A DNA stretch of 48,865 bases, taken from IMG/VR virus record IMGVR_UViG_3300025115_000020, positions 1 to 48,865 of that record; one strand, written 5' to 3'. How positions within the stretch are numbered: the first letter of the stretch is position 1; each line of letters starts with the position of its first letter. This document shows, in pieces, positions 24,333 through 44,500 of the stretch. The translations under genes and the position numbers were made by a program. Source of the stretch: a virus. The notes under the pieces were generated by a model. That model was not told where the DNA came from, ran no database searches, and saw nothing but the letters and a program-made list of their open reading frames with translations.

Positions 24333-24386
24333 GTACTTGCCACAACACAGGAGAACAAAGAACGAAAGAAACGGAGGTAATTGCCT

Positions 24387-26087
24387 GTGGGGACACTTAA
24401 ACAAGCACCCAGAGATAAGTACGACATTGTCATATTCAAAGTTTTAGGGTACAGTCATAAAGGTACCGAATTGGATTTATTTATTCATACCATACGACAC
24501 CGACGCAACGGGCGGTACTACCCATACGTTGTGACCTTAGTAAACACACCTGAACAAGCCTATTTGGAAATGTATTCAGACAAATCGCCTTTGGCAGATG
24601 CAAACGGCATATTCAACCGAAGTGTTTACTTTCCAAAAGTAAGTTATCTGAAGGAGGATTGGGGCGCACCAAACCTACTTGTTGATACCAAATCCGACAT
24701 GATTATGTATATACTCGAACGGGAACCTCAAGCACTTCTTGAGTCCATGTTCGACAAAGCACCCTTGTTCCAAAATTGGGGAACTATACACAGAAGAGCA
24801 CGGGAAGCGTTTGGTATATTGAAGCAAGAAGGGTATTACGGCGGAATCCGACCAGAGTATTACCAAAATTATATCACAACCGCTGTGCTTATTGCGGGAA
24901 ACCACGACCCTTGGCAATCGAACAGGTTCAAACAAATGATTATTGGGGACAATGTTTACCCACCCTTATATAGGTATAGCGAACCTGCTTACAAGTCTAA
25001 AATGTCTGCCGCGAAAACCGCGCAAGGAGGAACAACAGAGCCTATGAGCAACCCATCAACCACCGCAACGATTGACCTTTCAGTAATCAAAGAACTCAAA
25101 GACGCAATCAAATCCATTGAAAGAAAACCGACTGTATTGGAAGAGCGTTTGCTCGAAGCAGTTATCGAGAAAACTAAAGACCTCGCGACTGCGGAATTGG
25201 AATTGGAATTAAAATCGCGCCTTCAAGACTTCATCCAAAAGACGTATGGTGTACTACCGCAACTCTTGGAAATCAAAGTGGCGAACGGCGCGACAAAACT
25301 GACCACAGGTATTTTCCATGAGAAGTTGCCTGACATCCTGACCATGCTGGCGAACAACATTCCTGTCATGTTGACGGGACCCGCAGGTTCTGGGAAGAAC
25401 TACTCGCTGGAACAAGCAGCGCAGGCATTGGAAATCCCCTTCTACTACACGGGAGCGATTACCCAAGAGTATAAACTCACAGGGTTTATTGACGCAGGGG
25501 GTCGCTACCACGAAACCGAGTTCTATAAGGCGTTTAAGAACGGCGGTCTGTTCATGTTGGATGAAGTTGACGCAAGTTCGCCAGAAACCCTCGTCATTCT
25601 CAATGGTGCAATCGCGAACCGCTACTTCGACTTCCCGAACGGACGCATCCAGGCGCATGAGAACTTCCGTATTGCTTGTGCTGGGAATACGTACGGTACA
25701 GGCGCAGACATGATATATGTAGGAAGAAACGTGCTGGATGGTGCGACGCTGGACAGATTCGCGGTCATCAAAATGGACTATGACTTGAATATAGAGAAAC
25801 AGTTGTGTCCTGACCAAGAGTTCTTCGACTTCGTACAGGCAGTACGTAAGACGGTGTTTAAGACCAAGTTACGTCATATCGTAGGGATGAGAGCAAGTAT
25901 CAATGGGTATCGTTCGCTGATGGCAGGAATGTCAAAGCAGTTCATCATTGAAAGCATCCTGCTTAAAGGATTAGGTATTGACGACATCAACGTGTTGATG
26001 ACAAACCTGGAAGATGGTGTGAAGTCAACAGATTGGGGAAGAGAACTTGGCAAGTATCAAAGTACCATGAAAAAGGCGGTGAAATAA
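24387..26087 (+). CDS. MoxR/AAA_5-type AAA+ ATPase
   Basis: A 566-residue protein. The GTG at 24387 is 9 bases from GGAGG; the TTG at 24381 is too close. The N-terminal ~230 residues are unassigned, followed by a coiled coil (~225-275). The AAA+ domain has Walker A GPAGSGKN (331-338), with Asn where Ser/Thr is usual, Walker B LFMLDEVD (about 388-395), sensor 1 in CAGNTYGTGAD and an arginine finger in ATLDRF. MoxR-type ATPases remodel partner proteins, usually one encoded next door; here that would be the gene at 26087. Phage relatives are common but their job is unknown. Confidence 0.8.
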   Translation: MGTLKQAPRDKYDIVIFKVLGYSHKGTELDLFIHTIRHRRNGRYYPYVVTLVNTPEQAYLEMYSDKSPLADANGIFNRSVYFPKVSYLKEDWGAPNLLVDTKSDMIMYILEREPQALLESMFDKAPLFQNWGTIHRRAREAFGILKQEGYYGGIRPEYYQNYITTAVLIAGNHDPWQSNRFKQMIIGDNVYPPLYRYSEPAYKSKMSAAKTAQGGTTEPMSNPSTTATIDLSVIKELKDAIKSIERKPTVLEERLLEAVIEKTKDLATAELELELKSRLQDFIQKTYGVLPQLLEIKVANGATKLTTGIFHEKLPDILTMLANNIPVMLTGPAGSGKNYSLEQAAQALEIPFYYTGAITQEYKLTGFIDAGGRYHETEFYKAFKNGGLFMLDEVDASSPETLVILNGAIANRYFDFPNGRIQAHENFRIACAGNTYGTGADMIYVGRNVLDGATLDRFAVIKMDYDLNIEKQLCPDQEFFDFVQAVRKTVFKTKLRHIVGMRASINGYRSLMAGMSKQFIIESILLKGLGIDDINVLMTNLEDGVKSTDWGRELGKYQSTMKKAVK

Positions 26088-28378: not shown

Positions 28379-29329
28379 ATGAACGAGAAAAACGAATTCG
28401 CTACAACGCTTTTACCAAATCCTAATGCTAGGGACAAGTGGGCGCAAGTCTTCCACGACAATTACTTTGGGCGTTCCCCAGAGGCGAAGTCACTTGAACC
28501 ATTCCTCAAACAAACGTACAAAGGCAACACCTATGTACCGTGGGCAGTCATGGAACGCTTGACGTACATGCAAGACCCGAACGCAGTATTTATCAAAATT
28601 AAGAACGAGCATGGCGGTTTGGTGCATACCGATACCCTCGTGATTGAGTCACTTGTCAAAGGCGAAACATCCAGAGTCATGTCATGTTCCCACTTTGTAG
28701 AAGTATCACTTACTTTCTTAGGTAAGACCTTCGTTGAGAACTACCCTGTACAAGACGCGTCGTATGGCGCTCCGAAAATGTATGAGCAAAATCAAGTCAA
28801 CAAAGCGTTACAACGTGCGTTGGCAAAAGTCGCGAGTCGTGCGACAGGACTTGGGTTGTCGCTTTATGAGAGTGGGGACTTGAACTTCGACGACACCGTG
28901 GAAACTACATCAATCCCCAGACCTGAAGTCAAGCGTTCTGTATCTGAAAAGACCACTGAAATGCTGACCAAAGTCGAAGAACCTGCGCCTGTTGTGGAAG
29001 AACCGAAGGTTGAAGAACCTGTGAAAAAAATCACAAGGAGCGCACCCAAACAAAAAATTGAAATTGAACCTACACCTGCAATAGTTGAACCTGTGGTTGA
29101 ACCAATTGTATTGGATGACACGGATGTAGATAGAGTGATTGCCATTATCAAGAACGAGGAACTCAAAGCGAAAGTGCTTGCTGCGTTACGTAGTTTCAAT
29201 CCGTCGTTCATCAAGAATTATGGCATGACGATTACCACAACAGATAGCATTGAAGAACTTCGTGAGAAGTTGAGCAAGTTGTCTGATGTAGATAAGTTCT
29301 TAAGAGCACTAGAAAGGGTGACACAATGA
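28379..29329 (+). CDS. Single-strand annealing protein, DUF1071/Sak3-like
   Basis: A 316-residue protein, AAAGGAGA site. The N-terminal ~170 residues follow the DUF1071 plan: YVPWAVMERLTYMQDPNAVF, a central beta region with HFVEVSLTFLGKTFVENYPVQD, and NKALQRALAKVASRATGLGLSLYE, matching the family's N-KA-R-L-K-A-GLGLY signature. A Pro/Glu/Val linker (~195-245) leads to a helical C-terminal domain. Such Rad52-related proteins anneal ssDNA in phage recombination, working with an exonuclease; the YqaJ-like exonuclease at 37663 is the likely partner. Confidence 0.75.
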   Translation: MNEKNEFATTLLPNPNARDKWAQVFHDNYFGRSPEAKSLEPFLKQTYKGNTYVPWAVMERLTYMQDPNAVFIKIKNEHGGLVHTDTLVIESLVKGETSRVMSCSHFVEVSLTFLGKTFVENYPVQDASYGAPKMYEQNQVNKALQRALAKVASRATGLGLSLYESGDLNFDDTVETTSIPRPEVKRSVSEKTTEMLTKVEEPAPVVEEPKVEEPVKKITRSAPKQKIEIEPTPAIVEPVVEPIVLDDTDVDRVIAIIKNEELKAKVLAALRSFNPSFIKNYGMTITTTDSIEELREKLSKLSDVDKFLRALERVTQ

Positions 29330-29985
29330 ACGTAAAAAGACGACTCTTCCAAGAGTTCGGACAACTTGACAACAACCGATACTACTACGCAAACATCCAT
29401 AATGAATTTTATTATGGGGTATCAACTTTGTTTCATTACAAAGAGCGTAGTGTGTGGGGGGACAAGGACTTAGCAGAAGAAGAGTCCTTCATCACAACCA
29501 AGATACCTGAAGCAGTGATGGTTTTCTTGGAACGATTTGTACAACATGTAGAAGAACAAGGTGTAGAAGGTGGAGCAATGGACTTCGTGAAAGTACGTGA
29601 GCAAATCAAAGAGAAGATGATTGACTCGGTGCTGTCTGTGTCTGAACCAACACCAACAGTAATGATGTACTTGCAAAAAGTTTCCGACTCATTCTATTAT
29701 GATTGGACAAACAAGGCAGTCAACGCGTACTTGGAAGGCACAGGTCATTGGACACCTATTTACTTCGAGTACAACGGACTCGCCTCAAGAATGGTGTGGT
29801 TGGCGCGTTCCAACGGGGACGTTATCGACATCATCAACTTGAAACTATTCGGTAAGGCAGAGGAAAACGAAGTGACCTCGCTAAAGAGAATACTGCTCAC
29901 CGCAGACCTCGTTGAACTCTTCCTCGATAAGATTAGCAGTGGATTACCAAAAAGTCCCGAAGGGCAAAAGGAGAAAACGCAATGA
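29326..29985 (+). CDS. Hypothetical protein in the recombination cluster
   Basis: A 219-residue protein whose ATG overlaps the annealing-protein stop (ATGA). Aromatic-rich N-terminus (NNRYYYANIHNEFYYG), central helices and a C-terminal helical pair. No motif recognised. Coupling to the annealing protein and the DUF669-like protein suggests a DNA-metabolism role, inferred from context only. Confidence 0.55.
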   Translation: MNVKRRLFQEFGQLDNNRYYYANIHNEFYYGVSTLFHYKERSVWGDKDLAEEESFITTKIPEAVMVFLERFVQHVEEQGVEGGAMDFVKVREQIKEKMIDSVLSVSEPTPTVMMYLQKVSDSFYYDWTNKAVNAYLEGTGHWTPIYFEYNGLASRMVWLARSNGDVIDIINLKLFGKAEENEVTSLKRILLTADLVELFLDKISSGLPKSPEGQKEKTQ

Positions 29986-30500
29986 TAGACTTAATGAACA
30001 AGGCAGTTACACCACGCGAATTCAACAACCAATACGACTTACTACCGAAGGGCACATATAACTGCCAAATCATAACCGTCGGAGAATGGAAACCAAAACA
30101 AAACACTACGCTTAAGGTCTTTGAGTTTGATGACTCTGCTCGTAAAGTTAAAGACGCAAAGGGCAACGACAAGTACAGCGTACTGAAAGACGTGACTACG
30201 TATAGCGCTCAAATCGTATTTGAGGTTATGGAAGGAACGTTCAAAGGGGTAAAAGTTTATTACTACCTGAACCTACATCCGAATCAACCATGGGCAGTGC
30301 CTGCGTTCTTAAGCGCATGTGGTATCACGGATGAAGTACATCCACGCGAGATTGAATCGCTCTGCAAGGGTTCATTGGTAGCAGTGACCGTCGAAACGGA
30401 AACGTATAACAAAGAAATTGAGGACAAAACAACAGGTGCTGTGACAATCGAAGAGCGCGAACGCAACACCGTTAAGAGAATTAAACCTTACAGTCTGTAA
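29982..30500 (+). CDS. DUF669-like protein, possible ssDNA-binding protein
   Basis: A 172-residue protein overlapping the previous stop (ATGA). It has the DUF669 arrangement: LLPKGTYNCQIITVGEW near residue 20, IVFEVMEGTFKGVKVYYYLNLH around 78-100, PAFLSACGITDEVHP, then a VAVTVETETYNKE strand. DUF669 proteins sit in phage replication/recombination clusters and are thought to bind ssDNA. The family call is moderate; the function follows from it. Confidence 0.6.
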   Translation: MIDLMNKAVTPREFNNQYDLLPKGTYNCQIITVGEWKPKQNTTLKVFEFDDSARKVKDAKGNDKYSVLKDVTTYSAQIVFEVMEGTFKGVKVYYYLNLHPNQPWAVPAFLSACGITDEVHPREIESLCKGSLVAVTVETETYNKEIEDKTTGAVTIEERERNTVKRIKPYSL

Positions 30501-30501
30501 G

Positions 30502-33255
30502 ATGGACTTCTTTCGGAAATATTATTCAGGGGTCGAGTTTGCAGGGGACGAAGTTAAAGTGCTTTGTCCCTTTCATTCCGACACGCATCCGTCAGCGTAT
30601 ATCAACACAAATGACTCACTGTTTTATTGTCATGTTTGTCAATGGGGAGGAAATGAAGAGCAATTCGTTGCTAAATTAAACAACATTTCAAGAAAAAACG
30701 CTGCGAAATTATTGGGACACATGGACAGGTACCCTATCAAATGGGAAGACACCTACCAAGTGGACTTGTGGGCGAACGCTGACTTTCTGAGTAAAGTGCG
30801 CTCTTTGGGATTAAGTCAAGAAACGATTGAAGAGATGAAACTTGGTCTTGTCAGTGTATTGGGTAAGGAAACGCTAGGAATACCTGTGTTCTACAACAAA
30901 GTGTTAGTGGACATACGCAGGTATAACCTACTGAAACATCCGAAGTTGCCTAAACTTATGGGGAACGAAGGAGCGCAAACAGGGTACGTCATTCCTTATG
31001 ATTTATGGGACAAGACTTTGCCAACTTATGTATTCGAGGGTGAGAAGGACATGCTTATAGCACGAGAACTTGGACTCAATGCAATCACATTAACAGGTGG
31101 TGCTGGTGCGGTACCGAATGAGTCAACGTTACCAGCGTTCAAAAACACCGAGTTGATACTGTGTTATGACAATGATGACGCAGGTCGTGATGGCATGGAT
31201 AACTTGTTCGCTCACCTACACAAAACATGTAGCAGTATTAAGTATATCAACATTGCAGACAGGGTATCAGAACCCAAAGAGGACTTCTATGATTACGTCA
31301 TGAAGTACCAAGGCGACGTGTTTGATTTCCTGTCATTATATACCCACGATTTCGATAAAGAGATTGTTAAAAAACGCTTTGCACCTACAACCCTTGCCAA
31401 AGCATTAGGGGAGAACAAGTTGCGTACAGAACTTACAAGTATCGTTACAGTTACGAGTGAGTTTGTGGACAACTTCGGAGTACCTACGGTTGCCAAGTTT
31501 ACAAAAGGTGCAGAAACGAAACGGAAACATGAGAAGATGTCTGAAGGCGAGGTACGTATGTGGTACTTGGAAGAGTCAAACCCTGATGAGTTACTACAAT
31601 TGATTGAGTCGGATGCCAAACTCTCCCAGCAGAACAACAACCTATTGCGCTTTGCTGGTATCAGTAAAGACGAAGAGAATGTGTCCATTGAGAAGTACGA
31701 GTTCCAAACCGTGTACTTAAACACCGTCATAGATAAAAGCACTGACGGTAACGGTATCGCGTTGGATGTATATTCCTTCGGCAAACTCAAAGTCGGTCAG
31801 CAATACGAAATAAGGTATAAGATTTACAACCACCCTACGAAACATCAAAAGTTAGTGGCGGTGTGCTACGAGTATAGACACATAGGTTCCAACGACGATT
31901 ACAAGTTAGATAGGAGTCTGTTGTCACAATTCAAAACCAAAGGCACGATAGCAGAGCGGATTGATTATCTCTACCAAAGTGCCAAACATCATGTAGCGAA
32001 ACACATGGATTTCAATATTTGGTTAGCGTCAGACTTGGTGTTCAACTCTATCTTGGAGATTGATTACGGAGAACGAATGTCAGGCGCGCTGGACATATTC
32101 ATTCTTGGTGACACGCAGGTAGGTAAATCCGAAACGACTTCAAAACTTACAGGGTTGTATGAGTTCGGTCACTTCCTGTCACTCAAGACTTCGACTACCG
32201 TCGGTTTGATTGGCGGTTCCACAAGTGTACATGGCGCTTGGTGTAATACCATTGGTGCTATACCACGCCAGCATAAACGGTTGGTGGTTCTTGAGGAGTT
32301 CAGCGGTGCAAAACCAGACTTCATTAAGACCATGACGGACATAAGAACCAGCAAAGTCTTACGACTTGCACGCGCTTCTGGGGAACTTGAGGTGGACTGT
32401 CACCTACGGATGATAACCATTTCAAACCCTATCAATGACGAAACAGGTGCACCTCGGTTCCTGTCCTCATTCCCTAACGGTGTTATTCCAGCAATGGAAC
32501 TTATTAAGTCCCAAGAAGACGTGTCCAGATATGACGCGTTCCTGATGACACCAAAGAAAGACACCCGTTCAAACCCGTTTACTCACGCATTGAAAGGCAC
32601 ACCGATAGACAAGAAGTGCTACGTTCATAAAGCAGAATGGGTAACGTCACGTAAACCAGAGAACGTCAAGTTCGACGAAGGAATTGAGTCTTACATCTGG
32701 GAACAAGGCGAGTACTTGAACAGCAAGTTTGAATGTAACTTCCCTGTATTCGGTGCGACTACTGCCAAGAAGTTGGCGAAGTTTAGTGTAGCGTTGGCAA
32801 GTTTAATACTCAACACGGATGAAACCATGGAGAACATCCTCGTCACAAAAGAAATCGTGGACTACATGGTGGAGTTCATCATCAAGATTTACAGTTCGGA
32901 GTCGTTTGGGTTAGACCGATACAAAGAAGAGTACGACAGTCACAATGAATTCACACAAGATGACGTGGTGCTACTTGAGAAACTCTACCCAGCAAATGCA
33001 ATCCTGTTCGACTTTCTTGCGAAACAAAGCAAGACGACACGTAGTAACTTACGTACGGTATCTGGGTTGGAGGGAGATAAGTTCAACCCAATATTCAATC
33101 AGTTGGTTACACTTAAGTTTATCAGGATTAGCATGGAAACGGTGTACCCTACCGAAAAGTATCGGAAGGTGTACCCACTTATCAATAAGTTTTCAATCAA
33201 CACAGGCGGAACACTGATAGGTGCCGTCAATAAAGGAGGACAAAATGTTAGATAG
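30502..33255 (+). CDS. Primase fused to an MCM-type AAA+ helicase
   Basis: A 917-residue protein. CHC2-type zinc finger C22, H25, C43, C46; TOPRIM with FEGEKD (about 178-183) and DNDDAGRDG (223-231). A linker (~270-420) and an OB-like region (~420-520) lead to an AAA+ domain: Walker A GDTQVGKS (536-543), Walker B LVVLEEF (594-600), sensor SNP and an arginine-finger-like SRYD. The stretch between the Walkers (TTVGLIGG...GAWCNTIGAI) and the ARASGELEVDCHLRMITISNP hairpin match MCM proteins, not DnaB or SF3. The C-terminus (~820-900) is winged-helix-like. Expected to be the replisome helicase and primer maker. Confidence 0.8.
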   Translation: MDFFRKYYSGVEFAGDEVKVLCPFHSDTHPSAYINTNDSLFYCHVCQWGGNEEQFVAKLNNISRKNAAKLLGHMDRYPIKWEDTYQVDLWANADFLSKVRSLGLSQETIEEMKLGLVSVLGKETLGIPVFYNKVLVDIRRYNLLKHPKLPKLMGNEGAQTGYVIPYDLWDKTLPTYVFEGEKDMLIARELGLNAITLTGGAGAVPNESTLPAFKNTELILCYDNDDAGRDGMDNLFAHLHKTCSSIKYINIADRVSEPKEDFYDYVMKYQGDVFDFLSLYTHDFDKEIVKKRFAPTTLAKALGENKLRTELTSIVTVTSEFVDNFGVPTVAKFTKGAETKRKHEKMSEGEVRMWYLEESNPDELLQLIESDAKLSQQNNNLLRFAGISKDEENVSIEKYEFQTVYLNTVIDKSTDGNGIALDVYSFGKLKVGQQYEIRYKIYNHPTKHQKLVAVCYEYRHIGSNDDYKLDRSLLSQFKTKGTIAERIDYLYQSAKHHVAKHMDFNIWLASDLVFNSILEIDYGERMSGALDIFILGDTQVGKSETTSKLTGLYEFGHFLSLKTSTTVGLIGGSTSVHGAWCNTIGAIPRQHKRLVVLEEFSGAKPDFIKTMTDIRTSKVLRLARASGELEVDCHLRMITISNPINDETGAPRFLSSFPNGVIPAMELIKSQEDVSRYDAFLMTPKKDTRSNPFTHALKGTPIDKKCYVHKAEWVTSRKPENVKFDEGIESYIWEQGEYLNSKFECNFPVFGATTAKKLAKFSVALASLILNTDETMENILVTKEIVDYMVEFIIKIYSSESFGLDRYKEEYDSHNEFTQDDVVLLEKLYPANAILFDFLAKQSKTTRSNLRTVSGLEGDKFNPIFNQLVTLKFIRISMETVYPTEKYRKVYPLINKFSINTGGTLIGAVNKGGQNVR

Positions 33256-33727
33256 AATTATCGTCAACGGTATCGACATCACGGATTACCGCAACCACCC
33301 ACGTATTTTGGAACTGCGCTTTGTCGCAATCTATGACAGGTGGTACAGAGAGTTCGGAGAACGCGCAGATGGAATCCTCGTTGGATTAGCGTCTGCGTTC
33401 CACTGCGACATCACGAAGTTACGTGTTGTTGCTAACCAGGCACCTGCGATTCGCAAGATAACCAAAGGTCAACGAGTTAAGAACATTCAAGAGCATGTAT
33501 TCATGGGCGAAGTTTGGAGAGAGGCACGGTACACCACTGCCGGTAAGTACATGAACCTGTCCACTAAGACGCTGTACTCACAAAAAGAGTACATCCCTAA
33601 GAACTTCTTGGACACCGCGTGGTTAGCGACATTGGACGGAGAGGTAGTTGCTTGTGGTCTGAAACAGTACGCTACTGAATTAGAGCGATTCCTTGAGTCA
33701 CACCACGCACTTTCAAAGGTGATATAA
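33245..33727 (+). CDS. Hypothetical protein between primase-helicase and polymerase
   Basis: A 160-residue protein. AAAGGAGG lies in the last codons of the primase-helicase gene, giving an 11-base overlap; its stop overlaps the polymerase start (TAATG). The middle contains VWREARYTTAGKYMNLSTKTLYSQKEYIP, possibly a helix-turn-helix, and basic segments (RKITKGQRVKNIQ). Tight coupling on both sides suggests a replisome accessory role. No family recognised. Confidence 0.55.
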   Translation: MLDRIIVNGIDITDYRNHPRILELRFVAIYDRWYREFGERADGILVGLASAFHCDITKLRVVANQAPAIRKITKGQRVKNIQEHVFMGEVWREARYTTAGKYMNLSTKTLYSQKEYIPKNFLDTAWLATLDGEVVACGLKQYATELERFLESHHALSKVI

Positions 33728-35826
33728 TGTTCGCCTTCCAAAAGTTCGGTTATGAAACAACCATTGTAGAGAGTGAAGCACAGGCGCTGGAGTTGCTAAA
33801 AACAATTCCAGCGCATATCTCCCTTATGGGTTTCGACACAGAAACCACAGGATTACATATCATTTCTGACAGACCGTTCCTTATGGTTGTTGGTTATGAC
33901 AAACGTATATTCTGTCTTGAGGCGACGGAAACGTGGCAAGTTAATTTTGTTAAAGAACTTATGTTTCGTTCGGACATGGTGTTTGCGCACAACGCGAAGT
34001 TTGATTATCACATGCTGTACAACACACTATGGATTACAGCAGAGGAACTTCGACGTATTAAGTGGGCAGACAGCATGGCAGTTGCAAGACTCACGCAGTA
34101 CGCAGATGAAACGGCACGTCTATCGTTAGAGAAGTTGGCGAAAGAATACGTGTTGACTACTGCAAAGGAATCTGGTTCGGCTATCAAGTCGCGTATTCAA
34201 GAACTTAACCGCAGTTCTAAAGCCTATACGAAGGAATGTTTCAAAGAATTATTCCCAGATTTAAGTTTTGAAGAAGAGTTTGATATGTACATGAATTCAC
34301 ATATACCTTATGCAAAACCATTCAACACAGATGTTCACACGTTCTTCTACTGCACTTATGCAGATGCAAATTATTATACAGTTTATGAGGAGAACCCAAA
34401 TCTGGTTCGTGCGTATGCTATGGATGATGTGGTGTTGATGCTGGAGTACCTGAAACAAGCACTACCTACATTGAACTACGTTGACCCAGGTCGCGTTACG
34501 TTCCAAAGAGAGTGTAAGTTAGTTCATGCAACCATGTGGATGGAACGCACAGGCATCAAAGTCGATAAGGACTATATGCTTAAAGCAAGGCGAAAGGTTG
34601 TGGAATACCGCGACCAATTGCAGGACAGGTTCAAAGAGTTGATTGCAGAATACGATTTTACCCACACTCAAGGTAAGCGTATCATAGAATATTTCAAGGA
34701 AGTCTGGGACATACACATGGAAACTGCGGATGAACTCTCTTTAACGAGAGTTGCAGAAAGCATCAACAATGCTCAAGTCAAAGAAATCGTTGAACTTATC
34801 TTAGAGTTGCGTAATGTAGAGAATAAGGTGTTAAGCACCTACATAGACGGGAAACTAAAGGAAATTGTAATAGGGCGCATTTACCCAACGGTGAACAATC
34901 AAGGCGCTGTGAGTGGTCGGATGTCATCCTCTATGCAACAACAACCTAAAGACCCGTTGGTCAACAAATATACAGGGGAAGAATTGTTTCATCCTCGTAA
35001 GATTTTTATAGCAGATGATGATTGTGTTCTGTTGTTCATGGACTACAACCAAATGGAGTTACGTGTTCAAGCGGAGTACACAATCTTATTAAAGAAACCT
35101 GATGTGAACTTGTGCAGTGCCTACATACCGTTGGGTTATGTTGCTGAAGACGGTCACGCGTATCGGTTGGACAAAGACAAAGGGAAACCTAAAGAGATGA
35201 AGTACTACGCACCTGACGGTACCCCATGGACACCGACAGACTTACACGCAGTAACGACATTCAAAGCGTTCCCGCATCTAAACAACGACCCAACACACCC
35301 AGAGTTCAAAAGTCTTCGACGATTGGGTAAAGTGTGTAACTTCTTGAAGAACTATCAAGGCGGAGTCGCTGCAATAAAAGACCAATTAGGTGTGTCGGAT
35401 GAAATTGCAGAGAAGTTGGACAAGGCATATTATGAAGCGTTCCCAAATATCAAAGAATACCAGCGTTGGGTGCAGAAAGAAATGCTGTACAACAACTTTG
35501 TGACAAACTTGATGGGAAGACGCTACTACATGAACGACTCACGTTGGTTCTACAAAGCAGGCAACTACCTGGTGCAAGGAACCGCTGCGGATTTGTTTAA
35601 GTCGAAACTCATTGAGTTGGATGACGCGTTGCTCCCTACGGACACACGTTTAGCACTACCTATTCATGATGAAATCATGATAAACATGCCAATACGTGAG
35701 ATGTACCTAATCCCTGTGCTACAATACATCATGGAAGATGTTGACCATGTAATCAAGTATATTCCTATGGATGTTGGGGTTGACATCAGTTACACAAATT
35801 GGGCAGACAAGGAGGAGTATATATGA
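33727..35826 (+). CDS. polA: Family A DNA polymerase with 3'-5' exonuclease
   Basis: A 699-residue replicative polymerase. Exonuclease motifs: FDTETTGL (D37, E39), HNAKFDYH (D93) and YAMDD (D234). Polymerase motif A MDYNQMELR (D439), motif B RRLGKVCNFLKNYQGG (R531, K535, F539, Y543) and motif C IHDE (H647-E649). Phe at 539, as in E. coli Pol I and not the Tyr of T7. No 5'-3' exonuclease domain. A long insertion between motifs A and B (about 450-525) is Lys/Pro-rich and could contact a processivity factor. Stop overlaps the next start (ATGA). Confidence 0.92.
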   Translation: MFAFQKFGYETTIVESEAQALELLKTIPAHISLMGFDTETTGLHIISDRPFLMVVGYDKRIFCLEATETWQVNFVKELMFRSDMVFAHNAKFDYHMLYNTLWITAEELRRIKWADSMAVARLTQYADETARLSLEKLAKEYVLTTAKESGSAIKSRIQELNRSSKAYTKECFKELFPDLSFEEEFDMYMNSHIPYAKPFNTDVHTFFYCTYADANYYTVYEENPNLVRAYAMDDVVLMLEYLKQALPTLNYVDPGRVTFQRECKLVHATMWMERTGIKVDKDYMLKARRKVVEYRDQLQDRFKELIAEYDFTHTQGKRIIEYFKEVWDIHMETADELSLTRVAESINNAQVKEIVELILELRNVENKVLSTYIDGKLKEIVIGRIYPTVNNQGAVSGRMSSSMQQQPKDPLVNKYTGEELFHPRKIFIADDDCVLLFMDYNQMELRVQAEYTILLKKPDVNLCSAYIPLGYVAEDGHAYRLDKDKGKPKEMKYYAPDGTPWTPTDLHAVTTFKAFPHLNNDPTHPEFKSLRRLGKVCNFLKNYQGGVAAIKDQLGVSDEIAEKLDKAYYEAFPNIKEYQRWVQKEMLYNNFVTNLMGRRYYMNDSRWFYKAGNYLVQGTAADLFKSKLIELDDALLPTDTRLALPIHDEIMINMPIREMYLIPVLQYIMEDVDHVIKYIPMDVGVDISYTNWADKEEYI

Positions 35827-36104
35827 ATCGTTTAGAAAAAGACCTGCAAAAAGATGTACTGAAGTTTGTGAAAGAACAAGGTATTTTTCACATAAGAACA
35901 CAGATGGGAACCAAGTCTGGATTACCTGATGTTATTTTGTGTCATGCAGGTCGGTTCATTGGGATTGAATTAAAGCGAGAAGATGGTGTTGGATTCGCTA
36001 CCGCGCAGCAGTTAATGGTTGGTAAAGACATACAGAAATCTGGTGGTGAGTTCTACGTTATCTCTTCTCTTGTAGAGTTAAAGAAGGTGTTAGGGTATGA
36101 TTGA
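35823..36104 (+). CDS. VRR-NUC domain nuclease
   Basis: A 93-residue protein, AAGGAGGA site, overlapping the polymerase stop. It is a stand-alone VRR-NUC domain: GLPDVILC (D36), FIGIELK (E49, K51) and TAQQ (Q62). The family are PD-(D/E)xK nucleases, some of which resolve branched DNA, and phages commonly encode one beside an SNF2-like helicase, as here. Confidence 0.85.
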   Translation: MNRLEKDLQKDVLKFVKEQGIFHIRTQMGTKSGLPDVILCHAGRFIGIELKREDGVGFATAQQLMVGKDIQKSGGEFYVISSLVELKKVLGYD

Positions 36105-37467
36105 GTTACGTTGGTATCAACGTCAAATCTTGGATGAATTAAACCACATACCTTCTATCGGTTTGTTTATGGGTACGGGAACGGGGAAGACTTACACTTC
36201 CCTGTTCCGTGTAAAAGAAAACCCGACAACGAACCTGCTGGTTGTTTGTCCAGCAAAAGTCGTACAGCAGTGGCAAGCAGTCATCCCTGATGTGTTACCT
36301 AACATGGAGGTTATTGAGTTCAAAAATAACGCAACTGCAAGGGACATTAACCTATCGTTGCCTAAAATCAACCACGGTAAAACTGACTACGTGATTGTTG
36401 TCAGTTTAGAAATCGTTTCAAAACTTGACAATCTCTTGCACATTGTGAACAAGAATTGGACTATCATTTTAGACGAGAGTCACAAGATAAAAGAGTATGG
36501 AACCAAAAGAAATCCTGTTAAAGTGACTCACGCTATGTTAGAATTAAGTAAGAAGACGGACTACAAAATCATCCTTACGGCAACACCAACGCAGAAAGAT
36601 AAAGGGGGTTACATTGACTACTTTACGCAGTTAAAGTTCCTCGGCTACATGGATTTGGGACTCGCAGAGTTTCAGAATAAGTTCTGCGTCATAGACAAGA
36701 TACATCCTATCGGTCACCCCTTTCCAGTGCCAATCATACGTAAGTACAAGAACACCGAAGTCTTAGATGGACTGCTTCAGTTATGCTGTCGCAGGTTTAC
36801 CTGTCAGTTCGGAGATTTTGAACCACAACACACCAAGGTAACGCTACCAGCGCCTCGCAGTTATCGCAGGCTGGTCAAAGAGCGTGCGTATGATGAACTT
36901 AACCTCACAGATTTAACGTCGCGCAGAATCGCTAAAAAGACCCTCTGCACAGGCGTAGTGCTTGGTCGTAATTCCGCTGGAATACAGATGATGATAGGTG
37001 ATAACACAGTTAAGTTCGAGTGGTTGCAGGAGTTCTTGATAAACACAGATGAAACCGTAGTGATATTCTACAACTACAACGTGGAGTTAGAAACTCTTGA
37101 AACGCTATGTAAAAACCTCGGTAAGAAGTACATCACTATCAACGGTCAAACCAAGGACAAGTTCAAGGCAATTCAAAGCGAGGGGTATCAGGTAGTACTT
37201 GGTCAGTTCGCTGCGTGTGGTGAGTCGGTAGATGGTTTACAACACCGTAGTCACATTTGTATTTACTTCGCCATGCCTGAAAGTTCTCTGTTACACCGAC
37301 AGGCGCTGGGGCGTATTGACCGTGATGGTCAAACCAAAGTCCCTATGTATTACTACTTGGTCATGGACAAGACAATCGAAGACGACATCTATAAAATGAC
37401 CGAAAGCAAGATTTTCTTTAATGAAGAAACGCTCAACCAATTAGAGTTGAAGGAGGACACCGAATGA
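36097..37467 (+). CDS. SNF2-like superfamily 2 helicase
   Basis: A 456-residue protein overlapping the nuclease gene by 8 bases. It has Q-like WYQRQIL, Walker A GTGTGKT (K31), DESH (D126-H129), LTATPTQ and QALGRIDRDGQ (402-412). Length and motif spacing fit compact phage SNF2-type translocases. With the VRR-NUC partner it probably processes recombination intermediates during replication. Confidence 0.85.
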   Translation: MIELRWYQRQILDELNHIPSIGLFMGTGTGKTYTSLFRVKENPTTNLLVVCPAKVVQQWQAVIPDVLPNMEVIEFKNNATARDINLSLPKINHGKTDYVIVVSLEIVSKLDNLLHIVNKNWTIILDESHKIKEYGTKRNPVKVTHAMLELSKKTDYKIILTATPTQKDKGGYIDYFTQLKFLGYMDLGLAEFQNKFCVIDKIHPIGHPFPVPIIRKYKNTEVLDGLLQLCCRRFTCQFGDFEPQHTKVTLPAPRSYRRLVKERAYDELNLTDLTSRRIAKKTLCTGVVLGRNSAGIQMMIGDNTVKFEWLQEFLINTDETVVIFYNYNVELETLETLCKNLGKKYITINGQTKDKFKAIQSEGYQVVLGQFAACGESVDGLQHRSHICIYFAMPESSLLHRQALGRIDRDGQTKVPMYYYLVMDKTIEDDIYKMTESKIFFNEETLNQLELKEDTE

Positions 37468-37661
37468 CACAATCACAACTCACGAAGTTCATGGATTACA
37501 AATCAAAAGATTACCTACTTCAAGTACGTGATAACGGAACGTTAGTTATCATGGACAACTACCACAACCTTGCAGCGCTTATAGCACCGACGCTTAATCA
37601 AAAGCCTGAAGTTGTGGAAAACATTGTTAAAGCCTATGGATTTACCAAGGGAGGAAAATAA
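37464..37661 (+). CDS. Small hypothetical protein
   Basis: A 65-residue protein whose ATG overlaps the helicase stop (ATGA), site AAGGAGGA. Mostly helical with DYLLQVRDNGTLVIMDNYHNLAALIA. Its position between helicase and exonuclease suggests an accessory role. No family recognised. Confidence 0.55.
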   Translation: MTQSQLTKFMDYKSKDYLLQVRDNGTLVIMDNYHNLAALIAPTLNQKPEVVENIVKAYGFTKGGK

Positions 37662-37662
37662 C

Positions 37663-38544
37663 ATGGCAACAAAAGAAAGATTTGATGTAACCGCAAGCAG
37701 TCTGGGTTCTTACTTCGGTGTAGGATTTAACACCCCAGAAATGCAACTCTTGTTCGACTTAGGTATCGAAGAAAACACCTTCACCGAAGAAGCGGAAGAC
37801 CGTATGATGTTAGGTACGACGCTGGAAAATAGTGTGTTGGATTACTTCGAGTCCTTCATGGAAATCTCTATTACCGAACGTAATGCTGGTATGGTTTATG
37901 CGTTTGATGGCAGACTCAAATGTAAAATTGACGGTTTTACTGTCGTTGACGGAGAACCTATGGTCGTTGAATGTAAGGTGTCTAACGCACAAAAGAAGTT
38001 CACGGCAGACAAGGGTTACTACCTTCAGTGCCAAGCGTACATGGAAGCAATGCAAGTTGATGCCTGCTTGTTAATGGGGTTGTGGCATGGCAAACCTATT
38101 TACACCGTCATTCGTAAAGACCCTGAAGTTATCAAACTGATTGAGGAAATGGTTGACTTCCTGTATGCCTGCTTTGCAGGTATCATATCTCCCGAAGATT
38201 TCCCATATCATTTGGTCGCTGCTTACACAAAAGAAAAACCACTTGAACCAGTGGAACTTGAAGACTCAGATGTGGCGCTACTTGAGGAACTTGAAGAACT
38301 TAAACGTTCTGTGAAGTCCACTACGTCACGTATTGAGGAGATTGAAAAATACTTCAAGCAGATGAGTGACTTCAAGTTTGACCATGAACGGTTCACTGCC
38401 ACGTTGTCCACGCAGCGTAGAGATGGGGGGATTGACATTGACCTTATCAAAGTCGATTACCCTATGCTGGATGAAACCAAGTATAAGAAACCCGATAGTG
38501 AGTACAACGTATTAAGAATCACACCAAAGAAAAAGCCGAAGTAA
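37663..38544 (+). CDS. YqaJ/lambda-exonuclease-like recombination nuclease
   Basis: A 293-residue protein, GGAGG site. The PD-(D/E)xK core is clear: E55 (GTTLENSVLDYFE), D90 (CKIDGF), E103 and K105 (VVECKVS), then QCQAYMEAM. A helical C-terminal part (~195-245) and a basic tail follow. Such enzymes digest one strand of dsDNA and hand the ssDNA to an annealing protein, here most likely the product of 28379-29329. Last gene of the early block; the shared terminator begins inside its final codons. Confidence 0.8.
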   Translation: MATKERFDVTASSLGSYFGVGFNTPEMQLLFDLGIEENTFTEEAEDRMMLGTTLENSVLDYFESFMEISITERNAGMVYAFDGRLKCKIDGFTVVDGEPMVVECKVSNAQKKFTADKGYYLQCQAYMEAMQVDACLLMGLWHGKPIYTVIRKDPEVIKLIEEMVDFLYACFAGIISPEDFPYHLVAAYTKEKPLEPVELEDSDVALLEELEELKRSVKSTTSRIEEIEKYFKQMSDFKFDHERFTATLSTQRRDGGIDIDLIKVDYPMLDETKYKKPDSEYNVLRITPKKKPK

Positions 38545-38556
38545 TCCTTCGGCTTT
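38532..38556. terminator. Bidirectional terminator between convergent blocks
   Basis: Ten-base-pair stem AAAGCCGAAG/CTTCGGCTTT with loop TAATC, followed by TTATTTT on the plus strand and preceded by AAAGAAA, giving a T-run on the minus strand. The exonuclease stop codon starts in the loop, and the giant-protein stop is at the right base. Confidence 0.9.
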
Positions 38557-41500
38557 TATTTTAATCGTTTATACTTGAGTAACGCTTCCAGCGCCACGTT
38601 GGTCTGTTGTAGTTTTGGGTCTGCGTTGACCTTAGATTGAACAGTCAGTTCAGGAAGGATTACGCCTTGCTGTTTCAAGCGCTTCACGGCATCCTGGAGT
38701 TTCTCAAGTTCCTGATATTTCTTACCAAGACCTTCCGATACTTCATTGCCTTGCGCTAACATGTTTGTGAACTGTCCAACACCTTCTACCACATCCCCAG
38801 ACAACGCCTTGACTGCTCCATAACCAACTCTTGACGGTACGTCGAACCCTGTCTGTGATAACAAGTGTTCGCTCTTTTTCGTCATGAACGGTAATGAGGC
38901 TGAACGTTCCCCAGAGAAGTTCTCAATGGGATTGTTTGTGAAGAACTGTTTATTTAATGCGATTTCTGCTGGTGCTTTCACAAGTGGTGTCAATGCTGAT
39001 AAGGAACGACGCAATGGGTTACCCAGGAATTCCCCTAAGTCCGATGGTGGTAGATTTGCTTTGATAACATAGTACTTACCATTCGCGTCAATACCTGGAA
39101 GCGGGATATACATTTGGTCACGTTTGTAGTCTGCCACCTTTTCCCTGTCGATACCCATGAGTTCCCAAGACGAGTCTAATGCTTTCTGCAATCTGTGATA
39201 ACGGACTGCATTGATAGGCATGTTCTCAAAGTGATACACAAGGTTCATCTTCGTAAAGGTGTAGAACGGAATGAGTTTTTTTACATACTGCATTTCGTTT
39301 GGTGACAAGTTCTTCGGGTCAAACATGGAGAACCGTACGGCTTCCGCAGGAGTATCAAATCCCAGTTTCTTCAAGTACGTAGGGTCTTCCGTTGCCTTAA
39401 TCATAACCGCCATACGTCCATAAGCATCCAAACTTTCATTTCCCCAAGCATTTCCTAAGGAAAGTTCTTTACCTTTTGCAAGTACTCCTGTCCCCATTTC
39501 TGGAGGGGCTTGCTTCAGTGTTGGTGTCAATTCGTTTATACCTTTGGGTTTTAGTACACCTGATACGTCTTGCATTTGGGAACCTGTACCCTCCGCCATA
39601 CCTTTAAGTTTGTATTTTTCCCAAGGAACTGCTGGGGTGAACCCACTACTTAAGAACTCCTCATACATGAACAACTTCTTCATTTCGTCAGCAACCAGTG
39701 GTATGCCTTGCGCTTTCTTCATCATAAGTGTTTCACCTGCTTGGAAGATTTCATCTGCCTTACGAAACAGTTCAGGCATTTCCCTCAGACGTACACCAGA
39801 TAATTCCATGTTGGTTATTACGCCTAAGAAGTTTCTGATATTAAATGCAGGGGACAATAGTTTTGCTTGTTTGAACATGTTGTTGAACCCATCAACAAAC
39901 TTCAAGATTTCGTTAGAACGTTTTGCGTAATCTATTGTTAACCATTCTGCCAAGTTACGTTCAATAACAAATTGTCCTGCCTTGCCTAACTTCTCAGAGT
40001 GCACCAATTTTTGAGTCATGAGTCCACGTACTCGATTGATAGCGTCGCTCTTTGCATAGACATTCATTTCCCCCATTTTCTTGATAAGTTGTTCAGGGTC
40101 GTCAACAACAACAAACCCTTGTGGAACTTGCGCTGGAATCCACGAAGTCTTTTCAAAAGTTTTACCTACCAACGGATTAGTAACTTCTTCAAAATCCGCC
40201 CAGTGCAACAAGGAATTAACGTCATCCATGTCAACATCTTGTAAGGTAAGACCTGTCATAATTTCCTTATAAATGTTCGCTTTGGTTGCTTCTTTACCAA
40301 AAGAATCCACCCAATCCGCAATACTGTACGTAACACGTTCATCAAAGGCTTCTACTTGGTCTAATAAATCAGCAATACGCTTACCTTCGGTTACCTGTTC
40401 CCCGATTTTTTGATAAGTTTGTTTTTGCATTTGTTCAAGGAGTTGGTTAACTGTACCCATGTCCATCTTATCAATCTTATCTTGTGATATACCTTTATCA
40501 ACCAAAGCATTTTTGAACCGAATGATTTCTTCTTCAGTTTCAATCAGGTTGATTGGCATATTAGAGATTAAATCATCTGTGGATTTCAAATCACGTACAT
40601 TGATTCGCTTCATGAATTGGTCAACCGTTTCTGGGGATATTACACGTTGCGAGGTCGTAGCAACTGTTTCAGCACCTGGGCTTAAAGCATCCACGGTTTT
40701 ACCTGGAGTAGCCGTTGGTGTTGTTGATGTCGTTGTTGCTGCGGAGGTCTTCGGTTTCATAGCGTCGAATGGAGTTTGTTTTCCTTCAATACGTGTTTTG
40801 TAGGCAGGATTGTCAACGCTGATACCATATAATTGCATCTCTGACTCTGGTAATCGAAGCGGAGGTAATCCTTTTGCGATACGTGCTTCGTTGATTTCAG
40901 TCAAGATAGGTGCGATTTCTTTCATTGCTTCAGGGTTCTTCTTGTAGATTGCTTTTAACTTATTCTGCAAGGAAGCATCCTTACCGTCAAGCATTTTTTG
41001 AATGTATAAGTTACTGAACTCACCATCTGCCATTACGTTAGCAGATTTTGTCAGGTCGTACTCTTTCGACAACTTCGAGATAAGTGTATTGAATTCATTT
41101 TCAGGAGTGTAGGTTTTGATAGAACCACCTGTTTGTATGGAGTCAATCAATGCGCGGTTTCTGCTTTCCAACACATCAAGTGGTGCGGCGTTCTTAATAC
41201 GGAACATGGCTTCGTCCGCAGTTTCAAGTAAGTTCGCAGTTTTTGTAAACTTCCCAATAAGTTCGGCTGCTTCCAGACGACGACTGTCAATCTGGTACAC
41301 GTATTCCATCAAGCGTTTTCCGTCTTGGTCAACTCCTTTGGACTTCGCTAATTTCAAATCCAAGAACCCTTCTAATTCGCTCATTGCGCTATTTATGACG
41401 TATTGAGGCGAACGTTCAACTCCTGATTTCATAGTCAACACTTCGTCGGCTCTGTCAATCTGGCGCTTGTATAAGGCTAAACTGTCACGTTTTAACCGCA

Positions 41501-44500
41501 ATTCTTTTTCAAGACCTATGAGTCGGTCAGTTTCTGCATCAAATAGTTTTGTTGCTTCATTTGATTCAATTAAGGCGCTCTTGTAAACTTCCCTTTGTTC
41601 CATTAAACGTTTATTGAAATCCGCTGTACGTTTGTTTACTTCAGCAAGTGCGGACTTGTATTCTTCAGTTGCGGCTTTGTAGCGTCTTGCGTATTCATCC
41701 GACAACTTACTACGTTTTTTTAGATTGGCGGCTGTAACTTCAAGCCCATCAACGCGTTTAATTTCTTCTTCAAGTTTTAACTTTTCAGTTCCGAGTTTAT
41801 CAAGTTTAGCCTTTTCCGTAGTGGTTTTCGTAACTTTGACGTTCTTATCAACTTCAAGTTTTTCTGCCAAGTTCGTTTTACCAACGCGGATTTCATCCTG
41901 TAAAGGTACGAACGACTCTTCGGCTTTATTCACTAATTCCACAACGCTGTCTTTTTCTTTTTGAACCCTGCTCAAGTACTTCTGGAGTGCTTCAGGGTCG
42001 TTTGGTAACTTCGACGTACGCTGTTGAATACGATTCATTAAGGCAAGATACTCGTCAAACTTCAACGAAGGGTCAACCGTCTTTAAGTAGTTATACTTCA
42101 TGCGGTGGAAATCATACAACGTCGGGTTTTTACCTATGGAGGTGTACATTTGGTCAAATGTATCTTTCATGTGACGTTGCGCTTCAGTGAGTTGGAACTT
42201 ACCTTGTGCGGTCTTCATTTTTTCAAGTACATTTAATTTTTCACTTTCCGTGTAGTAGATTTCGGTATCATAAAGTTGTGTTTTATTTAAGTACTTCGCT
42301 TGCATACCGCTGGCTCTTGCCTGGAAAATGGCATACAAGTCTTGTGATAATTCAGGGTCATCAATCCCAGCAAGTACCATGGCTTCTTCCATAGTGATAG
42401 GTACCCCTGCTTGATACTTGTTAATAATCTGAGGACTACCAGTCAACATTATCAAGTCAACACTTTCTTCCCCGTGAACAAAGGCTTTTTCTAATGTCGT
42501 CCCTTTGTATGTATCGGTGATGATACGCAACATTTCTTTTCTACCTTCAGGACTTTCCAAAGGTTTCTCAATAACACGTGGTTTGAACTTTGTTGCGTCT
42601 GTTTTCTTTTCAAAAGCGGCTTGTTGCTTAGGGGTCATATTCAAGTATTGGCGACGTTCTTGTAGCATTTTGTCGGCTACTTCGCGAATACTTAACGAAC
42701 GTCTGTACCGTTTTAATTCATGGTACTGGTTCATGAGCGTTCTCAACTCAATATCTTCTACGTATTGTGGGTCAACGGTGTTCAAGAACCGTTTGATGTT
42801 CCCTTTAAGTTCATGGAACTCAAGTGTATCAGCAGCGTCTTCTGCTAATTTATCTACCACGTCTTCGATTGTATCATCAATCATGTTAGTTGCTTGTTTG
42901 TTAGAAGATATGGTTTGGCTGACATAACGTTCCATTTCTTTTGGTGACATTTCCGTAATCGTAACAGCATCCCGTCTTGCTTTAAGCGGTTTGGCTGGGG
43001 TTAATCCTTCTAAACCTTCCTTGATTTCAGCACGCCGTACTTCCGCTTGAATACTCTGTTTGGCTTTTTCTACCAATTCAGGCGAAGCATTTGTGTCCAC
43101 AATAATGTTGTTGCGGTGTTTTGACCATGAAACTCTATCAGGCAACGGGCTTTCTTTAAGGATTTGTTCTTTCAAATCAGAAATTGTTTTAGCATTTTCT
43201 TCTTGTTCCTTGGAAAGTTTACGGATGGAGTCAAGTACTACATCTTTTTCCTCTTGTGATAAAGCATCAATCATTTCACGGGTTGGGCGTTTAGAAACAC
43301 CACCTGCATGTAGATTCTTCGCGACGGCTTTCGCTTCCTCAATAGCATTTGTTGGTTTTTTGATTACACCAATCTTGTCCTTAATCAGTTGTTGTATAGT
43401 GCGTTTTAATTGTTTATCACTGGCACTTGCGGCTTCCTGAAACGCGGCTTCTTTATTTTTTGCAGTTAAGATGTCTGCGTCTACTTTATCAATTTTCTTC
43501 TTCAAATCAGACATTTTCTTACGGACGCTTAGTACGTTTTCTTCTCCAATAAGAGCCAAGTCGTGTGCTTCATCAAACCCAAGGGAATCAGTATGTTTCA
43601 ATTCCTCCTGGGCTTTCATACCATTTTCGATTGCACGATTTATTTTAAGTTCATCTGAAGTTAGTTTTCTTCCTGCCCTAATACCTTCATCAAAGAAATC
43701 TTTTCTGGTAATTATTGCGTCATCCGCCTGACCTAAAACTTTGTTAGCACTACGTACGGTTTCGCGTAAATCATTCCGTTTGATTGCATTTTCAATTTGA
43801 ATAAACTTCTTTTGTTCTGCAAGCAAAGGTGCCTTCTTCGCACGTTGTTCAGCCGTATCTTCAATGAACTTAGCAGGGTTTTCTTTGTATTCTTTGATGG
43901 TGTCTTCCACTGCTTTTTTGAACTCTTGATAAAGTTCCTTTGCACGTTCACTCTTTTCTGCATAACGTTGTTCTGCACCCGTGAGGCTTTCCCATTCTTC
44001 AACAGACATATTTTCTGCACCTGTAAGTTTGACTTCTTCTTGCGCAACGAGGTAATTTTCGTAGGCTTCTTGGTTGACCTTAGCGGTGTCGTCTGTGGTT
44101 TCAGAAACGGCTTTGGCTTTCTTGCCTTTACCTTTCTTAGGTGCTTCAGCAACAACTTCATCAGGTTCATAGAACACTTTCGACTTCTTAAAGTCTGCGT
44201 CTGCCTTCTTATGCAGTTCAGCCAGTTGTTCCTTAAGTTCGTTGTAGGCTTTAATACGGTACTCTGTTAAAGAACCTGCCTCAACACCAAACTCTTCAGG
44301 ATGTTCAATCAAACGTGCCAGTCCAGCAGGGTCATCTTTTACCCCTTCAACCTTAAACTCGTTTTTCAAATCATCCCAGAAGTATTTTTGCACTGCGCGG
44401 GTTTCTTCGATTGCACCAGAGGTTACATAGAACTCACCAGGTTTGGCTTTTTTGCCAACCTTCTTCACTGCATAAGGAACATTCTTATCCACGGGTATTG

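Follow-up and report, generated by a model that had tools for sequence, protein, structure and literature searches.

Fusions of a TOPRIM primase with a helicase are known already from phage T7 gp4, the helicase of which moves 5'-3' and encircles the lagging strand. MCM-type helicases in bacterial mobile elements have been known since 2005 (McGeoch and Bell; Samuels 2009; as cited in passages of PMC5862659 and PMC4538821), and MCM also occurs in PrimQH-family proteins (PMC5862659). BcMCM, a prophage protein in which an archaeo-eukaryotic primase (AEP) is joined to MCM, was reported as an active 3'-5' helicase, according to passages of PMC4538821, and Cch of SCCmec is given as an MCM-like helicase (Mir-Sanchis 2016, as cited in a passage of PMC7581432). 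In Paenibacillus phage vB_PlaP_API480 the protein gp47 was seen by mass spectrometry as a 'DNA primase' of 105 kDa; its helicase half was not recognised and MCM is unmentioned in that paper (PMC6937236). Here we describe a gene that joins a DnaG-type primase to an MCM helicase in IMG/VR virus record IMGVR_UViG_3300025115_000020, positions 1 to 48,865 (this whole stretch of 48,865 nucleotides is called the window below). A literature search, with the main survey (Kazlauskas 2016, NAR) outside its reach, found no description of a DnaG-type primase-MCM fusion, and such a protein is apparently undescribed. With a probability of about 85% it is the replicative primase-helicase of the phage. The domain composition, the predicted fold, the conserved catalytic residues, the lack of a detectable DnaB-type helicase and the conserved gene context were computed here.

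The gene is a single uninterrupted frame with ATG at 30502 and a stop codon ending at 33255, and it was confirmed that the product of 917 residues contains a CHC2 zinc ribbon, a TOPRIM primase and an MCM helicase in one polypeptide (Table 1). A sequence-only reading of the window had placed CHC2 and TOPRIM domains at the N-terminus, and Pfam found both. The zinc ribbon motif reads CPFH...CHVC and the TOPRIM motifs read GEKD and DND. Conservation was followed in two alignments, A1 with the window protein and ten relatives, and A2 with 72 sequences, in which the relatives are 22-59% identical. The four CHC2 ligand columns of A2 hold C in 68/72, H in 49/72, C in 70/72 and C in 70/72 sequences. 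The TOPRIM residue E181 is E in 69 of the 72 rows (one D, two gaps), while D223 and D225 are D in 70 rows each, with two gaps. By family profile, the N-terminal half matches DnaG and T7 gp4 in PDB with E-values down to 1.6e-29, and DNA primase families of PHROGs match it as well; residues 412-875 match phrog_18685, a family of unknown function. Because the catalytic residues are conserved over the 72 sequences, primase and helicase are both predicted to be active. In one relative (L024:4977-5100, same contig as L003) the zinc ribbon begins right after a stop codon, without its first cysteine, which is a frameshift or an assembly error.

The motor part carries the motifs listed for it in Table 1. 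The glycines G571, G572 and G585 around the helix-2 insert are invariant in A2, and so are R615, R636 and K757. The Walker A motif GDTQVGKS and the SRYD arginine finger (residues 675-678), both named in the sequence-only reading, are in place. Its helix-2-insert-like segment GAWCNTIGAI is present at residues 578-587, where the insert ends and leads into Walker B; its SNP stands at residues 641-643, and the hairpin itself is formed by two strands (619-632) just ahead of sensor 1. Chance occurrence of these motifs was excluded by their conservation across the 72 sequences, since these residues vary little or not at all at this range of identity and both halves match solved structures by family profile.

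Scored against the 917-residue protein alone, the Pfam MCM model gave E 2.6e-4 and 20.6 bits, where the curated cut-off is 23.3; in the genome search it gave 24.0. Three relatives, those of Youna2, BSP7 and Wollypog, exceed the cut-off. The model also scores above the cut-off in bacterial control genomes without MCM, likely because of ComM-type proteins. Since the single-protein score is sub-threshold and the model also matches these controls, Pfam alone is not decisive. When the C-terminal half was compared with all PDB sequences, the matches listed were MCMs only, the best with 3.8e-8 (A1) and 2.4e-9 (A2). The AAA+ profile found three haloarchaeal-virus MCMs by hmmsearch at 4e-10 to 4e-8, and hhalign of A2 with these MCMs extended over 471 columns (4.2e-15), reaching residue 872.

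The AlphaFold2 model, built on A2, had a mean pLDDT of 90.5, and the MCM half comes directly after TOPRIM in it. Foldseek of the model against PDB returned only MCMs among the matches listed. In VIA-align, residues 293-811 of the model were superposed on Sulfolobus MCM (SsoMCM) with Z 28.7 (446 residues, 5.5 A), and the motor alone on the MCM C-terminal domain 6sko_4 with Z 27.1 (303 residues, 2.8 A). Profile searches, profile-profile alignments and the predicted structure thus agree in assigning the ATPase to MCM, as the sequence-only reading had proposed, and not to DnaB; a profile placement in a non-MCM clade, which would have refuted that reading, did not come up. SF3 helicases gave no match at Pfam E-values up to 1 nor among the PDB profile and structure matches listed, a direct comparison not being part of these searches.

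The stretch 292-482 was also folded alone, and its best matches were MCM N-terminal domains (Z 12-13.6); against residues 91-242 of 1ltl, the MCM of M. thermautotrophicus, 137 residues were superposed at 3.3 A. A profile search of PDB sequences with this domain alone gave nothing meaningful (best 0.19), so it is placed by fold search only. The first about 100 residues of the MCM N-tier, the helical subdomain A, are without counterpart in the protein. Because the OB part was matched while these residues were not, the model indicates an N-tier that retains its OB part and has the primase in the place of subdomain A.

Table 1. Features of the primase-helicase protein and of the genes around it in the window.
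Feature	Position	Strand	Evidence
DnaG-type primase / MCM helicase fusion	30502..33255	+	single ORF, 917 aa; domain and fold evidence
DnaG-type CHC2 zinc ribbon, residues 14-75, ligands C22, H25, C43, C46	30541..30726	+	Pfam PF01807 3.1e-12
TOPRIM catalytic domain, residues 174-280; E181, D223, D225	31021..31341	+	Pfam PF13155 (Toprim_2) 4.9e-7
MCM-type N-terminal OB domain, subdomains B/C, helical subdomain A absent	31375..31926	+	folded alone, pLDDT 91.5
MCM AAA+ motor, residues 480-800	31939..32901	+	fold match 6sko_4; listed PDB profile matches all MCM
Walker A GDTQVGKS, residues 536-543	32107..32130	+	K542 invariant in 72
Helix-2 insert strands, residues 571-584	32212..32253	+	strand pair in model; aligned with MCM helix-2 insert
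Walker B LVVLEE	32281..32298	+	E599 invariant in 72; position 598 E or D
Pre-sensor-1 beta hairpin, residues 619-632	32356..32397	+	two model strands; aligned with MCM hairpin
Sensor 1, I640-S-N-P643	32419..32430	+	N642 invariant in 72
Arginine finger motif ED(V/I)(A/S)R(F/Y)D, R676	32515..32535	+	E672, D673, R676 invariant in 72
C-terminal winged-helix-like domain, residues 830-893	32989..33180	+	helices and two-stranded wing in model; hhalign to residue 872
Sak-type single-strand annealing protein	28379..29329	+	PF06378 3.9e-5; phrog_8492 1.5e-8
SSB-like / DUF669 gene beside primase-helicase	29982..30500	+	PF05037 2.8e-4; phrog_378 single-strand DNA binding protein 7.7e-5
Family A DNA polymerase with 3'-5' exonuclease	33727..35826	+	PF00476 8.8e-43; PF01612 1.9e-8
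SNF2-like helicase	36097..37467	+	PF00176 3.1e-15; phrog_62 2.6e-65
RecE-like exonuclease	37612..38544	+	phrog_434 4.5e-30; PF09588 YqaJ 8.1e-8

The same MCM half was found behind another kind of primase. In Bacillus phage vB_BboS-125 (L015:4465-7548) and in B. velezensis plasmid p3 (L117:3471-6563), which is possibly a phage-plasmid, it follows an AEP; in the plasmid annotation the primase part is named. The MCM halves of these two proteins are homologous to that of the DnaG-MCM family over their full length, N-domain included (profile 1e-134 to 1e-136, 604 positions). The archaeo-eukaryotic primase was recognised by PF01896 (3.9e-10), and the N-half profile of the DnaG-MCM family has no match to either protein. 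A third arrangement was seen in L040:4527-6635 (702 residues), where a CHC2-like zinc ribbon joins the MCM N-domain directly and TOPRIM was lost; this protein nests among TOPRIM-bearing relatives in the tree. No other TOPRIM primase and no family A polymerase were found in its contig, which is 45.9 kb and possibly incomplete. The AAA+ domain tree splits phage from archaeal-virus MCMs with full support; it is midpoint-rooted and the attachment of the AEP-MCM branch is not settled, so the order or direction of primase exchange is not readable from it.

In the window the gene is flanked by an SSB-like gene (single-strand DNA binding protein) and a family A polymerase gene, with one small open reading frame (ORF) before the polymerase. 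Paenibacillus phage SV21 has the same gene order of Rad52, SSB, primase and polymerase. A family A polymerase is present in 17 of the 20 relative genomes tested, so this pairing is usual in the family, and to call it an uncommon replisome design, as the sequence-only reading did, was too strong. The Microbacterium (Krampusvirus) and Arthrobacter (Wollypogvirus) members carry DnaE-like polymerases instead. Because no DnaB-type helicase (PF03796) was detected in any of the 21 genomes carrying the primase-MCM gene, window included, no ring helicase of replicative type other than the MCM half was seen in these phages.

The window has a P22-like portal, and its terminase is closest to those of the SV21/API480 phages (37% identity to API480). 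The portal and terminase matches place it among the podoviruses, as a distant relative of API480; no DNA-level relative was present in the phage collection. An AAA_5 / CobS-like ATPase gene lies upstream of the replication genes (24381-26087; phrog_249 'porphyrin biosynthesis', 1e-61). At 38556-48587, on the minus strand opposite to the replication genes, an ORF of 3343 residues takes up a fifth of the genome and possibly encodes a giant virion protein; it has no Pfam match, and its first 862 residues are without PHROGs match. In Youna2 (L009) and BSP7 (L011), QueC/QueD/QueE/GTP cyclohydrolase genes lie between the primase-MCM and polymerase genes, which suggests 7-deazaguanine DNA modification. 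In G004, the contig of L027, the family A polymerase match (33701-36094, minus strand) is broken by ten stop codons, that is by an insertion, an intron or an assembly fault.

By tblastn, full-length relatives were found in Paenibacillus phages SV21 and API480 (31%, E 1e-118), Bacillus BSP7/BSTP, Weizmannia Youna2 and ctIqW946, and further ones in Microbacterium Krampusvirus and Arthrobacter Wollypog. The helicase half was matched in 50 phage records. In IMG/VR, a pattern scan yielded 343 confirmed stretches, and 80 of these were fetched. When 84,980 bacterial and archaeal genomes were scanned with patterns from a smaller alignment than the 72-sequence one, only ten matches came up, mostly contigs of 25-60 kb in metagenome-assembled genomes (MAGs) that resemble phage contigs placed in bacterial bins. 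Contigs of phage size, 25-48 kb (L096-L103), stand in MAGs of Clostridia, Bacilli and Gastranaerophilales from rumen and gut, a hint of Bacillota hosts, although these contigs may be misbinned. By these matches, the family covers phages from two bacterial phyla, besides viral contigs in the hundreds. MCM had been called typical of archaea and eukaryotes in the sequence-only reading, which holds for cells, although MCM also occurs in bacterial mobile elements. The name given in the records is 'DNA primase', in some cases 'primase/helicase' or 'DNA primase small subunit'.

We propose the following mode of action. The C-terminal two thirds would form an MCM-type hexameric ring with an OB N-tier, an AAA+ C-tier and a winged helix, in which arginine fingers act in trans, and this ring would move 3' to 5' along the leading-strand template. 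A hexamer with this polarity is predicted because the protein belongs to MCM and because BcMCM was reported to act in this direction. The N-terminal third is a DnaG-type primase, so that every subunit would bear a primase at the rim of the N-tier. In the replisome of eukaryotes, Pol alpha-primase is located on the forward-facing N-tier side of CMG, over the channel by which the lagging strand exits (PMC10501992), and a primase fused to the N-terminus of an MCM N-domain would come to lie at the corresponding position. If the N-tier leads here as in CMG, the displaced lagging strand would exit the ring beside the primase. The fusion might then prime the lagging strand directly and pass primers to the adjoining family A polymerase. 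Beyond the ring and its polarity, we infer the N-first movement and the active priming.

Two rival assignments concern the ATPase itself. It could be another AAA+ protein with a pre-sensor-1 hairpin, of ComM or Mg-chelatase type and merely MCM-like, as the Pfam matches in bacterial controls and an hhalign match of A2 to E. coli ComM (147 columns, 2.5e-6) would allow. But the alignment with the haloarchaeal-virus MCMs is longer and stronger, ComM reached only 0.07 in the same hmmsearch, and an MCM OB N-domain and an MCM-like C-terminal part are present, so hmmsearch, hhalign and N-domain fold largely refute this very improbable assignment. That the protein has a DnaB/RecA-type helicase like T7 gp4, with MCM-like motifs by chance, is hardly credible at all. 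The order of primase then helicase is that of T7 gp4, which the N-half profile matches, whereas the C-terminal half has no profile match to DnaB (hhalign E 0.09; hmmsearch score below 0 bits) and its predicted fold is MCM. The statement of the sequence-only reading that this half is not of RecA/DnaB type is thus borne out by profile, hhalign and fold, which together with the absence of PF03796 from the genome refute a DnaB/RecA-type helicase.

Other readings accept the MCM and differ in the role. The enzyme may serve replication restart or recombination-dependent replication, being loaded at intermediates made by the Sak and RecE-like proteins while host DnaB does the bulk work. Its gene indeed clusters with those of an annealing protein, an SNF2-like helicase and a RecE-like exonuclease, no loader gene was seen, and host DnaB is borrowable in principle. 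Yet the phages of the family that were tested have no DnaB-type helicase of their own, the gene stands together with genes for an SSB-like protein and a polymerase, and phages of two phyla have kept it, whether their polymerase is PolA or DnaE, which makes this role unlikely. It is quite unlikely as well that the N-terminal part is no longer a primase and serves DNA binding or loading while host DnaG primes. L040 speaks for it, as it keeps zinc ribbon and helicase without TOPRIM, and its contig has no other TOPRIM primase; nearly all relatives nevertheless retain the catalytic residues E181, D223 and D225 as well as the zinc ligands, and two elements carry an AEP in the same place. That another primase kind sits there suggests that priming is what is kept. 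Several points do weigh against a replicative primase-helicase. No MCM loader gene was identified, and the literature gave no biochemistry for any DnaG-MCM protein, be it on hexamer formation, polarity, orientation or priming. Because L040 is without TOPRIM, the fused primase is not indispensable everywhere. The sensor-2 helix has an invariant Lys757 and Arg/Lys760 in shifted or uncertain register, and the MCM sensor-2 Arg is not clearly conserved. In the clade of the window protein the zinc ligands of the N-domain are gone (window positions 31504-31674, residues about 335-391). This four-cysteine site is all-or-none, complete in 44 of the 72 sequences and absent in 28 including the window protein, save one stray cysteine; as the wider family keeps it, the absence is a clade loss. 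Some cellular MCM subunits are also without the canonical zinc site, the zinc ribbon being common in MCM but not universal, so that it counts as a supporting feature and not as a decisive one.

Taking the protein as a replicative primase-helicase, we lean towards seeing in it a one-protein counterpart of the eukaryotic CMG-primase, built by a large phage lineage. A DnaG-type primase would replace MCM subdomain A on the N-tier, and on a shared MCM chassis the primase module could be swapped (DnaG-type or archaeo-eukaryotic) or lost. The lagging strand would be primed at the front of a 3'-5' helicase, whereas in T7 it is primed behind a 5'-3' one. A bacterial-type primase is here joined to a replicative helicase of archaeal/eukaryotic type, while cellular life keeps both apart. 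It offers a single-gene system for asking how a primase couples to a leading-strand helicase, and whether MCM needs loaders, Cdc45 and GINS. The annotation is corrected as well, for dozens of isolated phages and viral contigs in the hundreds carry a helicase that goes by the name 'DNA primase'. That both DnaG-MCM and AEP-MCM occur within one MCM lineage is relevant to the question which part of a replisome is exchanged more readily, the helicase or the primase.

Among known proteins, the 'DNA primase' of SV21 and API480 (gp47) has the same full-length architecture as the window protein and its gene likewise adjoins SSB and DNA polymerase I genes; it differs in the Walker A, which reads GEPRSMKS, and in being annotated as primase only. 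Since mass spectrometry showed gp47, at least one phage does express the fused gene. The 'DNA primase(/helicase)' proteins of Krampusvirus, Wollypog, BSP7/BSTP and Youna2 share TOPRIM and MCM with it, and the Bacillus-type members also CHC2. They are 19-24% identical and keep the four-cysteine zinc site of the N-domain; the actinobacterial members have a divergent zinc ribbon and DnaE-like polymerases. The AEP-MCM proteins of vB_BboS-125, p3 and BcMCM, the last likened by description only, have a primase N-terminal to MCM too, but theirs is archaeo-eukaryotic and unrelated to the CHC2/TOPRIM half of the window protein. SCCmec Cch, again likened by description, is an MCM-like helicase of a bacterial mobile element and is not described as a DnaG-type fusion. 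T7 gp4 shares the CHC2/TOPRIM primase N-terminal to a ring helicase, with a family A polymerase alongside, and differs in the RecA/DnaB-type helicase where that of the window protein is of MCM type. With archaeal and eukaryotic MCM the window protein has in common the OB N-domain, the helix-2 insert, the pre-sensor-1 hairpin, the arginine finger and the C-terminal winged helix, at about 12% identity; it differs by a primase in place of subdomain A, by an N-domain without zinc and by an apparently altered sensor 2.

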